DNA from: Acetoanaerobium noterae
GTDB lineage: Bacteria > Bacillota > Clostridia > Peptostreptococcales > Filifactoraceae
Assembly (NCBI RefSeq): GCF_900168025.1
Contig: NZ_FUYN01000003.1
Coordinates: 186,001 to 250,000 of the forward strand
Direction of reading: 5' to 3'
DNA length: 64,000 bases
Shown: piece after piece, positions 38,788-41,734 of the stretch
Numbering within the stretch: position 1 is the first letter of the stretch
How the letters are laid out: each line of letters begins with the position of its first letter
Notes under the pieces: model-generated
Databases searched by the model: none
Told to the model about the DNA's origin: nothing
The model's input: only the letters and a program-made list of their open reading frames with translations
Translations under genes and position numbers: made by a program

Positions 38788-39627
38788 TTATATATTTTCT
38801 CGTGTTTGAAATAAATTATTCAACACATCAATAATATTTTCATAAGATATATTAACAGCATACTTATAGTTTTTAGTATATTTAATCCATCTTTCTTTCA
38901 ATGTTTCACTTTCACTTAATTCATAAATTCGCCTACTTATATTACTAAGAATATGTATTGATGCTCTGTGCTCTGATGTTCTTTTAAGTGCTTCATAAAA
39001 TAACACTCTATCATACGGCTGAGTTTTAGCTAAAATATATACATCATAAAAATCTCTAGGGCGTGTATTTAACTGACCTCTTCTTAATATAGTTTCTACT
39101 TTTTCCGCTAAAATCGTCTCAATATTGTATGCCCATACTTCAATACTCTTATTATCAAACATCATTTTGAATAGATAATGTATTTCTTTTGGTGTAATTA
39201 CATCACCTGATGTAATATCGATATGAATAGGCGTAATAATGCTGTCATATTTTGAAATAATTCCTACTCTATATCCACCATAGTCATCATCATCTCTAAT
39301 AGCTTCTATTCTAGAGAATGTAAAGGTTACATCATCATCAATATAAATATTGCAGATTTCAGAGATTGCTTTAGTTATTGATTCTATATTTATTGGGTAG
39401 TTCTTTATGGTAGCATCAATATCCATAGTTGCCCTATTGTCGATTCCTACAATCGCTGCAATCAAAATTCCTCCTTTAAGTATAAATTTATCCTTATATA
39501 TAGATTTCGATAATCTTTCTAGAAAACGCTCAAACATATAATTTTGTAGGAATACTTGAGCCGATATGCCTTTCTCTTTAGAGAGATTTTTTATTTTTGC
39601 TTTCAAGCTCATTGCTTTACTGCTCAT
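38788..39627 (-). CDS. AbiEii/AbiGii-family nucleotidyltransferase toxin
   Basis: Toxin of a type IV-like AbiE toxin-antitoxin pair that gives abortive phage resistance in other bacteria. 279 residues: FILKGGILIAAIVGIDNRATMDIDATIKN contains the nucleotidyltransferase GG and D-x-D core (split here by reading positions 45-75), and AEKVETILRRGQLNTRPRDFYDVY is the family's C-terminal hallmark. GGAGG lies before the ATG, which overlaps the antitoxin stop (ATGA). Known members modify tRNA; its target here is untested. Confidence 0.9.
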   Translation of the reverse strand: MSSKAMSLKAKIKNLSKEKGISAQVFLQNYMFERFLERLSKSIYKDKFILKGGILIAAIVGIDNRATMDIDATIKNYPINIESITKAISEICNIYIDDDVTFTFSRIEAIRDDDDYGGYRVGIISKYDSIITPIHIDITSGDVITPKEIHYLFKMMFDNKSIEVWAYNIETILAEKVETILRRGQLNTRPRDFYDVYILAKTQPYDRVLFYEALKRTSEHRASIHILSNISRRIYELSESETLKERWIKYTKNYKYAVNISYENIIDVLNNLFQTRENI

Positions 39628-40217
39628 ATCAGCACCTCCAAATAATTTTTTAGTATTTTCTCTACTTTTAACATTTTTGCATATTCCATAAGTAATGAGT
39701 AATCAGTAGTTTTTAATTTTACAAATCGTTTAAATGAATCATTAATTATTTGTATATCTATACGATTTCTACTTCTAATTAAATCACACATAGTTCTTTC
39801 AATATTGTATACACTAATTGAGTTTCCAAATGAACTAATAGCTGAAATAATCCCCATTTGATGTAAATCGTTTTTTATATAGTAAATTTTGCATTTGTCT
39901 GCCACGTTTGGAACAACTTTATAACCACTTGGAAAAGACACTGAATATTCAAATGGCGTCCTATCAGTTAATCCATGAATATATAGTGCCGTCTCATGTG
40001 AGTAAATAATTTTTGAATACTTTGTTTGTAGAGAATACATTTCATCTTCTATAGAATCAATAGACACATAAACTCCTCTATCTGCCTTTTCAAGTTTCCC
40101 TTCAGCAACCATTTTTTGAAGATAAATTCGTGGTATCTTGTTTTCATCAATATCAGCACTCAATATAGTTCCATTGTGTTTTTCTAATAGTTTTTCAAGT
40201 TTATTTTGGTAGTTCAT
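39624..40217 (-). CDS. AbiEi-family antitoxin (transcriptional regulator)
   Basis: About 197 residues. An N-terminal winged helix (ILSADIDENKIPRIYLQKMV, then RGVYVSIDS) binds the operator, followed by the AbiEi domain (YSHETALYIHGLTDRTPFEY). ATG 40217 is preferred as GGTGAT lies just upstream; a GTG at 40226 overlaps that site. First gene of the pair and probably autoregulating. It neutralises the AbiEii toxin indirectly by repression and perhaps by modification. Confidence 0.88.
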   Translation of the reverse strand: MNYQNKLEKLLEKHNGTILSADIDENKIPRIYLQKMVAEGKLEKADRGVYVSIDSIEDEMYSLQTKYSKIIYSHETALYIHGLTDRTPFEYSVSFPSGYKVVPNVADKCKIYYIKNDLHQMGIISAISSFGNSISVYNIERTMCDLIRSRNRIDIQIINDSFKRFVKLKTTDYSLLMEYAKMLKVEKILKNYLEVLI

Positions 40218-40314
40218 GTACATCACCCGTTTTACTAATTTACTTACATTATATATTATTTAAGTATTTTTGTAAAATTGTTCGAAAAAATTATTTATTA
40301 GATCCTTGTCTATC

Positions 40315-41184
40315 TTAAAAAAAGCTCAGCTGCTCAAATTCAGTCTTGTCCTCGAACTCATTGAGATAGCCAAATATTTTATCTGGCTTATGCTCAATTT
40401 TATTTTTCTCGCAGAATTCATGGAATATTTTCATGAGTTTTGCGTTATTTTTGCTATTTATTATATAGCTATTTCCATATTCTTTAATATACTGCTCTTT
40501 TAGGTTTGGAAATTTTTTATCTAGCTGAGCATAGAAGTATTCTCTATTTCCATCACGTAGTGTCACTCCTATTCCAAAGCAAATAATTCCATACACTTTT
40601 GCTTCTTTGCAATAATTCAGTATTCCTAATAGGTTCTCTTCTGTATCATTTATATGAGGTAGGAGTGGTGTAAGCCATACTACTGTAGGGATTCCTGAAT
40701 CTCTTAATGTTAATAGGGCTTCAAATCGTTCTTTTGTAGTTGATACATTTGGTTCTATTTTTTTGCATAGCTCTTCATCGTAGGTCGTGAGTGTCATTTG
40801 AACTACGCATTTAGTTTTTTGATTTATTTCTTTTAGTAAATCCAAATCTCTGAGTACTCTATTCGACTTGGTTATAAGGGTAATTCCAAATCCATATTTA
40901 CTAACTACTTCTAAAGCTTTTCTTGTGTGTTTTAGATTGATTTCTTCTGGTATGTAAGGATCTGTCATTGCACCCATGCCAATCATACATTTTTTTCGTT
41001 TTCTTTTTAAGGCATCTTCTAATAGCTCAATTGCATTTTCTTTTACTTCTATGTCTTCGAATTTATGGTTCATTTGGTAGCAGGTGCTTCTTGAGTCACA
41101 GTATATGCAGCCATGTGTACATCCTCTATATAGGTTCATTCCATTTCTGGGTGAAAGAATTCCTTTTACTTTTGTAAAATGCAT
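40315..41184 (-). CDS. SPL-family radical SAM protein
   Basis: A 289-residue radical SAM enzyme. The cluster motif is C22-x3-C26-x2-C29 (GCTHGCIYCDSRS), as in the Rv2578c/spore photoproduct lyase-related group. GMGAMTDPYIPEE and LITKSNRVLRDLDLL follow the TIM-barrel pattern. The group has no established reaction. AAGGAG precedes the ATG. It stands alone between the AbiE pair and a hairpin repeat and is also found as a single gene in other Clostridia. Confidence 0.88.
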   Translation of the reverse strand: MHFTKVKGILSPRNGMNLYRGCTHGCIYCDSRSTCYQMNHKFEDIEVKENAIELLEDALKRKRKKCMIGMGAMTDPYIPEEINLKHTRKALEVVSKYGFGITLITKSNRVLRDLDLLKEINQKTKCVVQMTLTTYDEELCKKIEPNVSTTKERFEALLTLRDSGIPTVVWLTPLLPHINDTEENLLGILNYCKEAKVYGIICFGIGVTLRDGNREYFYAQLDKKFPNLKEQYIKEYGNSYIINSKNNAKLMKIFHEFCEKNKIEHKPDKIFGYLNEFEDKTEFEQLSFF

Positions 41185-41207: not shown

Positions 41208-41262
41208 TAAAAAAGTCTTATCCATGATTATTATCTCATAAACAAGACTTAGGTAGTAGCTC
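41208..41262 (-). repeat. Hairpin repeat, copy 3
   Basis: About 50 bp. Stem AGTCTTAT / AAGACT and the loop CATGATTATTATCTCATAA match the copies at 37391 and 38626; the tail diverges (AGGTAGTAG). It lies right after the HesB-like gene and reads as a terminator leftwards. Confidence 0.7.
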
Positions 41263-41267
41263 TTGAT

Positions 41268-41564
41268 TTAGCTTTCAACTATTTTAATATTTGTAAGAAT
41301 TATTTCTTTTAGAAATAAAAATCCTCTTAAATCAACTTCTGCATGCTCTTTTGTAAATTCAAAGCCTTTGTCTATATATACTTTGATTCCTTCTACTTCA
41401 TATTGATTAAAGTCCTCTCCAGCCTGGGGAGGTGTAGGCGATACTATAGCCTCTACCATTGGCCCTGCTCAGCCACGGGAACAGACTCTTTTTTCGAAAG
41501 TTATTGTGCTGATTGATTTTTGATTCATATATGCTTTAGCTTTTTCTGTTATATCAATTTTCAT
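41268..41564 (-). CDS. HesB/IscA-like protein with in-frame UGA, probable selenoprotein
   Basis: A 98-residue frame containing one UGA at 41471-41469 (codon 32). It has a strong ribosome site (GGGAGGAA) 5 bases before ATG 41564. Around the UGA it reads FEKRVCSRG-U-AGPMVEA, and it continues in frame to VEGIKVYIDKGFEF and VDLRGFLFLKEIIL, a HesB/IscA-like beta fold. HesB-like selenoproteins with Sec in this Cys position are known in anaerobes. A small hairpin (41431-41457) begins 11 bases past the UGA. If UGA were a real stop the two halves would be a 31-residue peptide and a 63-residue remnant. Function likely concerns Fe-S or metal binding. Confidence 0.75.
41431..41457 (-). promoter_or_regulatory. 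Candidate bacterial SECIS hairpin
   Basis: Downstream of the UGA the RNA can pair GGU...AGGC with GCCU...ACC around a 9-base loop (UAUAGUAUC). Distance from the UGA is within the range of bacterial SECIS elements. The loop does not clearly match the E. coli consensus with an early G, so this is a weak call. Confidence 0.35.
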
Positions 41565-41734
41565 ATAGATTCCTCCCTGCCACGTTAGTATGCTCAGTTT
41601 ATATATACCCTTTTTGTATACTTTAAATTAATAGGTTTTGAAAGGATAAATTATATATGCTAATATATTTATACAATAATTTTTAGTTACCTCAACGTTT
41701 CTATTAATTTCAATTTTGAAAAGGAGTTACTATT

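Follow-up and report, generated by a model that had tools for sequence, protein, structure and literature searches.

A minus-strand frame of 98 codons in Acetoanaerobium noterae very probably encodes a selenoprotein of the NF041239 family, a distant relative of HesB/IscA proteins in which UGA codon 32 would be decoded as selenocysteine (Sec) and the resulting, nearly lone selenolate may carry the function. The frame lies within a stretch of 64,000 nucleotides that we analysed as a whole (hereafter the window). By computation we found that the frame is open on both sides of the UGA, that the genome holds the machinery for Sec insertion, that the UGA is conserved and that relatives have Cys or Sec at the same site. 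The initial annotation had proposed a probable selenoprotein here, and the sel genes, the Cys/Sec homologues, the model for bacterial Sec insertion sequences (SECIS) and the same codon in other records all favour that proposal.

The reading frame and its signals

The product of the minus strand is MKIDITEKAKAYMNQKSISTITFEKRVCSRGUAGPMVEAIVSPTPPQAGEDFNQYEVEGIKVYIDKGFEFTKEHAEVDLRGFLFLKEIILTNIKIVES*, in which the TGA stands in the context CSRG-U-AGP. A strong ribosome site and a frame open through UGA codon 32 to its natural end had been claimed without a strand; both are confirmed on the minus strand (Table 1). A plus-strand reading of the same interval was ruled out, since it meets a TGA and, in addition, three TAA/TAG stops in frame.

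The intrinsic terminator that follows the full-length frame had a z score of -5.0, with 0/200 shuffles equally stable, and a matching element lies 3' of the orthologue in A. pronyense (z -5.7). For A. noterae strain DSL2 we obtained no stable terminator fold from a folded stretch that stopped inside the likely element. A promoter scan returned three promoter-like sites, all on the opposite strand and in a number not above that in shuffled sequences.

Past the terminator sits a radical SAM gene (window 40315-41184, minus strand), beyond which the alignment with A. pronyense deteriorates; it is a relative of the families PA0069 and Rv2578c, although its scores fall far under both cut-offs. At window 38788-40226, also on the minus strand, AbiEi-like and AbiEii-like genes stand side by side as a candidate type IV toxin-antitoxin pair. 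We scanned flanking genes at 30 loci against Pfam (54 of 58 listed ORFs, four short ones omitted) and found no shared operon, with no Pfam family in more than five, so gene neighbourhood lends no support to one function over another.

Table 1. Features of the window gene, and relatives with tandem TGA codons (positions within each place)
Feature	Sequence	Position	Strand	Observation
CC/Se-motif selenoprotein gene, probable (NF041239), 98 codons + stop	Window	41268..41564	minus	Frame open except one TGA
In-frame TGA, codon 32, probably read as selenocysteine	Window	41469..41471	minus	TGA kept in relatives; Cys/Sec site
Ribosome binding site GGGAGG, 7 nt 5' of ATG	Window	41572..41577	minus	Direct reading
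Candidate bacterial SECIS hairpin	Window	41431..41457	minus	Apical loop AGU at 41445-41443, 23 nt past UGA
Intrinsic terminator 3' of full-length frame	Window	41213..41250	minus	15-pair stem + T run
Tandem TGA place	L061	692-979		
Tandem TGA place	L062	674-952		
Tandem TGA place	L064	730-1014		
Tandem TGA place	L065	585-848		
Tandem TGA place	L066	749-976		
Tandem TGA place	L067	717-935		
Tandem TGA place	L068	660-959		
Tandem TGA place	L069	708-932		
Tandem TGA place	L071	681-923		
Tandem TGA place	L111			

Membership in NF041239 and the Cys/Sec site

With Cys written for Sec, the full-length protein matched NCBIfam NF041239 at 62 bits (cut-off 40) over residues 1-89 of 98. Searched from DNA, the gene scored 55.7 bits and was the sole match within its own genome, and the 63-residue fragment that starts at Met36 reached 35.9 bits, just under the cut-off. 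Table 1 of PMC13188914 lists NF041239 (Moor_selen_rel) as a predicted selenoprotein family, with the motif CxxU and one Sec. The gene thus belongs to a known family, not a new one, and adds a member to a selenoprotein family already in print. The claim that standard annotation had missed it stands for a plain ORF caller, but an NCBIfam model that the full-length protein passes already exists. None of the eight proteins in the selenoprotein list for the relative Clostridium sticklandii (Table 2 of PMC3091704) is the window protein.

We surveyed 391 genomes of the class for the family; of the 37 with an NF041239 match at E <= 0.001, 27 exceeded the cut-off. We read 53 of the 59 survey places, one of which (L105) was unlike a family member. 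Thirty-six sequences were aligned, namely the window protein, its A. pronyense counterpart, two relatives that belong to its taxonomic family and 32 further places, which together with the window gene make up 33 of the 34 survey places over the cut-off. Of the 36 rows, 24 have a TGA. In 18 of these, among them that of the window gene, it falls in the window gene's column, and in the other six, which are Cys-Sec forms, in the next column. All 12 TGA-free rows have Cys in the column, in an alignment in which Sec was written as Cys, a choice that favours agreement at the Sec column. The idea that Sec replaces an expected Cys is supported, with Sec or Cys at the site in the 36 aligned relatives.

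Independently of the alignment, TGA-bearing members of the family occurred together with selA. Genomes with a TGA-bearing match had selA above cut-off in 25/25 cases, compared with 35/366 of the others (5/12 with stop-free matches only and 30/354 without a match; Fisher p ~3e-23, relatedness ignored). Genomes were sorted for this table by stop status, matches below the cut-off included, and the class of one genome (G111) is uncertain, its stop-free match starting past the Sec site.

In keeping with NF041239, the window protein is small, scores over the cut-off and has Sec/Cys at the same site; in contrast to the CxxU motif of PMC13188914, its Sec is flanked by Gly and Ala, and its only Cys lies at -4 (CSRGU). 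Paired Cys/Sec (CC or CxxU) is absent both from the window protein and from that of A. pronyense (KSRGU), in which Lys takes the place of C28 and which, alone among the 24 TGA rows, is without any Cys. An adjacent pair is also lacking in other places over the cut-off, L029 and L034 (Cys 2 and 4 before Sec) and L038 (Cys downstream). Since the adjacent pair is not universal above the cut-off, we did not use its absence to exclude membership.

Relation to HesB-like and A-type proteins

The gene had initially been described as HesB-like. Profile comparison upholds this as distant homology, but as a family assignment it fails, the protein having no TIGR01911 match at E <= 1 and passing NF041239 instead. 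A scan of the protein against NCBIfam at E <= 1 returned NF041239 only, with no match to TIGR01911 (cut-off 66.35 bits), IscA, ErpA or any other HesB model. Pfam PF01521 (Fe-S_biosyn) showed resemblance over residues 1-80 at 12.6 bits (E 0.16), below its gathering score of 26.3. We then used hhalign to set the profile of the 36 aligned sequences against that of 26 proteins which the HesB-like model had found, 5/26 of them above the TIGR01911 cut-off. The resulting alignment spanned 89 columns (probability 96.1%, score 52.4), with Sec standing opposite Sec/Cys. The best of 60 column-shuffled controls scored 16.2 and the reversed profile 31.1 (70%), and the probability was 94% with all Cys masked and 93% with the motif masked. 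These comparisons support a putative distant homology between the NF041239 and HesB-like families.

Searched against solved structures, the 36-relative profile gave no match besides three protein-arginine deiminase sequences (E 0.014-0.039), which we judged to be chance. An AlphaFold model built from 2 sequences had a mean pLDDT of 43.9, too low for a comparison of folds.

A closer kinship, in which the gene would encode a strict HesB-like selenoprotein (TIGR01911) acting in iron-sulphur cluster assembly, is unlikely. The window protein does have in UAGP the UxGP motif that PMC13188914 gives for TIGR01911, and it shares the profile-level homology with its aligned Sec. Against this stand the lack of any TIGR01911, IscA or ErpA match at E <= 1, a pairwise BLAST alignment of only 5 residues with the genome's own HesB-like protein, and the absence of the C-terminal Cys cluster, which the HesB-like proteins of this genome possess. 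Moreover, a genuine TIGR01911 selenoprotein with its own in-frame TGA coexists elsewhere in the genome (75.1 bits; G000:C5:131728-131994, L072 1441-1767), together with a Cys paralogue that scores 61.4 bits, under the cut-off (G000:C3:100776-101015, L073 1423-1746). A-type proteins use a C-terminal Cys pair. The window protein resembles IscA/SufA/ErpA (PF01521) weakly, and differs from them in falling under the Pfam cut-off and in having no such pair. In Methanococcus maripaludis, a HesB-like selenoprotein was found by mutagenesis and 75Se labelling (PMC11097638).

Probable decoding of the UGA as selenocysteine

The in-frame UGA had been taken to imply a Sec insertion machinery in this organism, and such a machinery is present. 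In the genome (2,814,227 bases in 19 contigs), selD, selA, selB and tRNA-Sec all lie within one stretch of ~6 kb (C5:56992-63188). The tRNA-Sec (C5:63096-63188) scored 72 bits (cut-off 47), and ARAGORN assigned it the anticodon tca (UCA). Scores were 595 bits for selA, 371 bits for selB and 387 bits for selD, which has an in-frame TGA of its own and is a selenoprotein itself. By eye, response-regulator-like and histidine-kinase-like frames lie between selB and tRNA-Sec (L106, G000:C5:56500-63500).

The TGA recurs in two further records. In that of A. noterae strain DSL2 (NZ_CP154629.1), 97.0% identity extends over 99% of 7.9 kb around the gene, the TGA is the same and the protein match is 97.9% over residues 1-96. 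The DSL2 allele (L102 3001-3288) ends two codons sooner, with TAG at codon 97. This record is labelled a plasmid despite its length of 2.63 Mb; a search of the plasmid collection returned one matching record, from A. noterae. A. pronyense DSM 27512 (NZ_JAGGLI010000061.1) has the same TGA in an orthologue of 72% identity. In Nei-Gojobori counts against this orthologue (Fisher test on rounded counts), synonymous changes before the TGA numbered 13.0 on 18.7 sites compared with 15.0 non-synonymous changes on 74.3 (p = 1e-4), and after it 22.3 on 41.5 compared with 25.7 on 156.5 (p = 8e-6). The proposed continuity of the protein across the UGA is therefore above chance, with a synonymous excess on both sides.

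It is very improbable that the UGA is a true stop, the gene being dead or yielding just a 63-residue protein from Met36. As had been predicted for gene callers, a mechanical ORF list gives only this fragment (41459-41268), and a weak AGGG precedes its Met36. However, the coding constraint on the 31 codons 5' of the UGA would be needless if only the fragment were made, and the strong ribosome site belongs to the full frame. The position of the UGA is also unchanged across three records, and selA accompanies TGA-bearing matches in all 25 surveyed genomes that have them.

Less credible still is that a changed code or readthrough places some other amino acid at the UGA. The frame does stay open beyond the codon, as this would require, but 6 of the 52 window ORFs of at least 100 codons end in TGA and readthrough would extend them by only 3-25 codons, so that UGA is an ordinary stop elsewhere. 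The residue that stop-free relatives have at the site is Cys, not Trp, Arg or Gly, and the Sec machinery of the genome is complete. A sequencing or assembly error can be dismissed, the same codon being present in both NZ_CP154629.1 and NZ_JAGGLI010000061.1.

For Sec, we infer actual insertion at codon 32: SelB and the UCA-anticodon tRNA-Sec would read the UGA as selenocysteine, probably assisted by the hairpin just 3' of it.

A candidate SECIS hairpin

The bacterial SECIS model as described in PMC13188914 has a loop of 3-9 nt with G in the first two positions, a spacing of 16-37 nt and an MFE <= -7.5 kcal/mol. The hairpin that the initial annotation had suggested fits this model marginally, with an MFE of -7.7 kcal/mol and an AGU loop at a spacing of 23 nt, and its energy is ordinary. 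Folded alone it reached -7.5 kcal/mol with a z score of -1.47, 14/200 shuffles folding as well, and longer stretches around it were no more stable than their own shuffles. When we sampled 150 of the 2564 TGA triplets in the window, seven fitted the model, a chance of ~5%.

Across the family, 14 of 26 other single-TGA places fitted the SECIS model and 12 failed it, compared with 1/13 CC places (Fisher p 0.006); these 26 leave out the window gene and the HesB-like selenoprotein of the same genome, with both of which the count is 16/28. The A. pronyense orthologue passes too, but its best-fitting hairpin differs in shape and spacing (17 nt, with an 8-nt loop).

Relatives with tandem UGA codons

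Ten relatives, spread over 9 genomes and two taxonomic families, have TGA-TGA at the Cys-Cys site, mostly in the context GUU...PSG.MGKPE (Table 1). Nine of these places came from the 391-genome survey and one (in G452) was a later addition. All of the first nine fitted the SECIS model (9/9 tested, L111 being outside the test), and selA was over the cut-off in all 8 genomes that contain them. In comparisons of close sequences (for example, L107-L111, L107-L109 and L127-L129), changes per site were mostly synonymous both before and after the two TGA codons; more distant comparisons approach saturation, and L064, the most divergent place, was outside the constraint test.

From their sequences, these relatives are candidate bacterial Sec-Sec proteins. 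An algal protein is claimed in PMC7539508 as the first Sec-Sec protein, and none of the literature matches listed for consecutive Sec was a bacterial one, which is no proof of absence. This side finding may be more novel than the window gene.

Implications for function

In the window protein, Sec would stand where HesB-like proteins have their conserved Cys/Sec, with the C-terminal Cys motif absent. This combination makes a classical iron-sulphur scaffold role unlikely, and the protein may instead be a small carrier or redox protein. Its one reactive selenolate could bind a metal or chalcogen, or exchange with an outside thiol. Because C28 is missing in A. pronyense, any partner thiol there would have to be supplied by another molecule. 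The complete lack of Cys in that protein also means that an internal redox pair of Sec and Cys, which the CxxU motif of the review (PMC13188914) suggests, is not general in the family. On these sequence grounds we favour a single selenolate that would serve as ligand, carrier or nucleophile.

We suggest tentatively, as a reading that is possible but leans towards doubtful, that the members of NF041239 form a natural series at a single site. It would begin with Cys-Cys, pass over Cys-Sec/Sec-Cys and tandem Sec-Sec, and end with a Sec that is alone or nearly so in Acetoanaerobium, the window gene standing at the lone-Sec end. If this were true, the selenol would act with no partner thiol in the same chain, and the chemistry of the family would be ligand or chalcogen binding and not that of an internal redox pair.

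The window gene is a divergent, well-supported addition to its selenoprotein family, and it illustrates that a plain ORF caller can reduce short genes of this kind to misleading fragments. A. noterae has this lone-Sec form alongside a distinct selenoprotein of HesB-like type and the Cys paralogue of the latter, and would offer a workable system for studying function.
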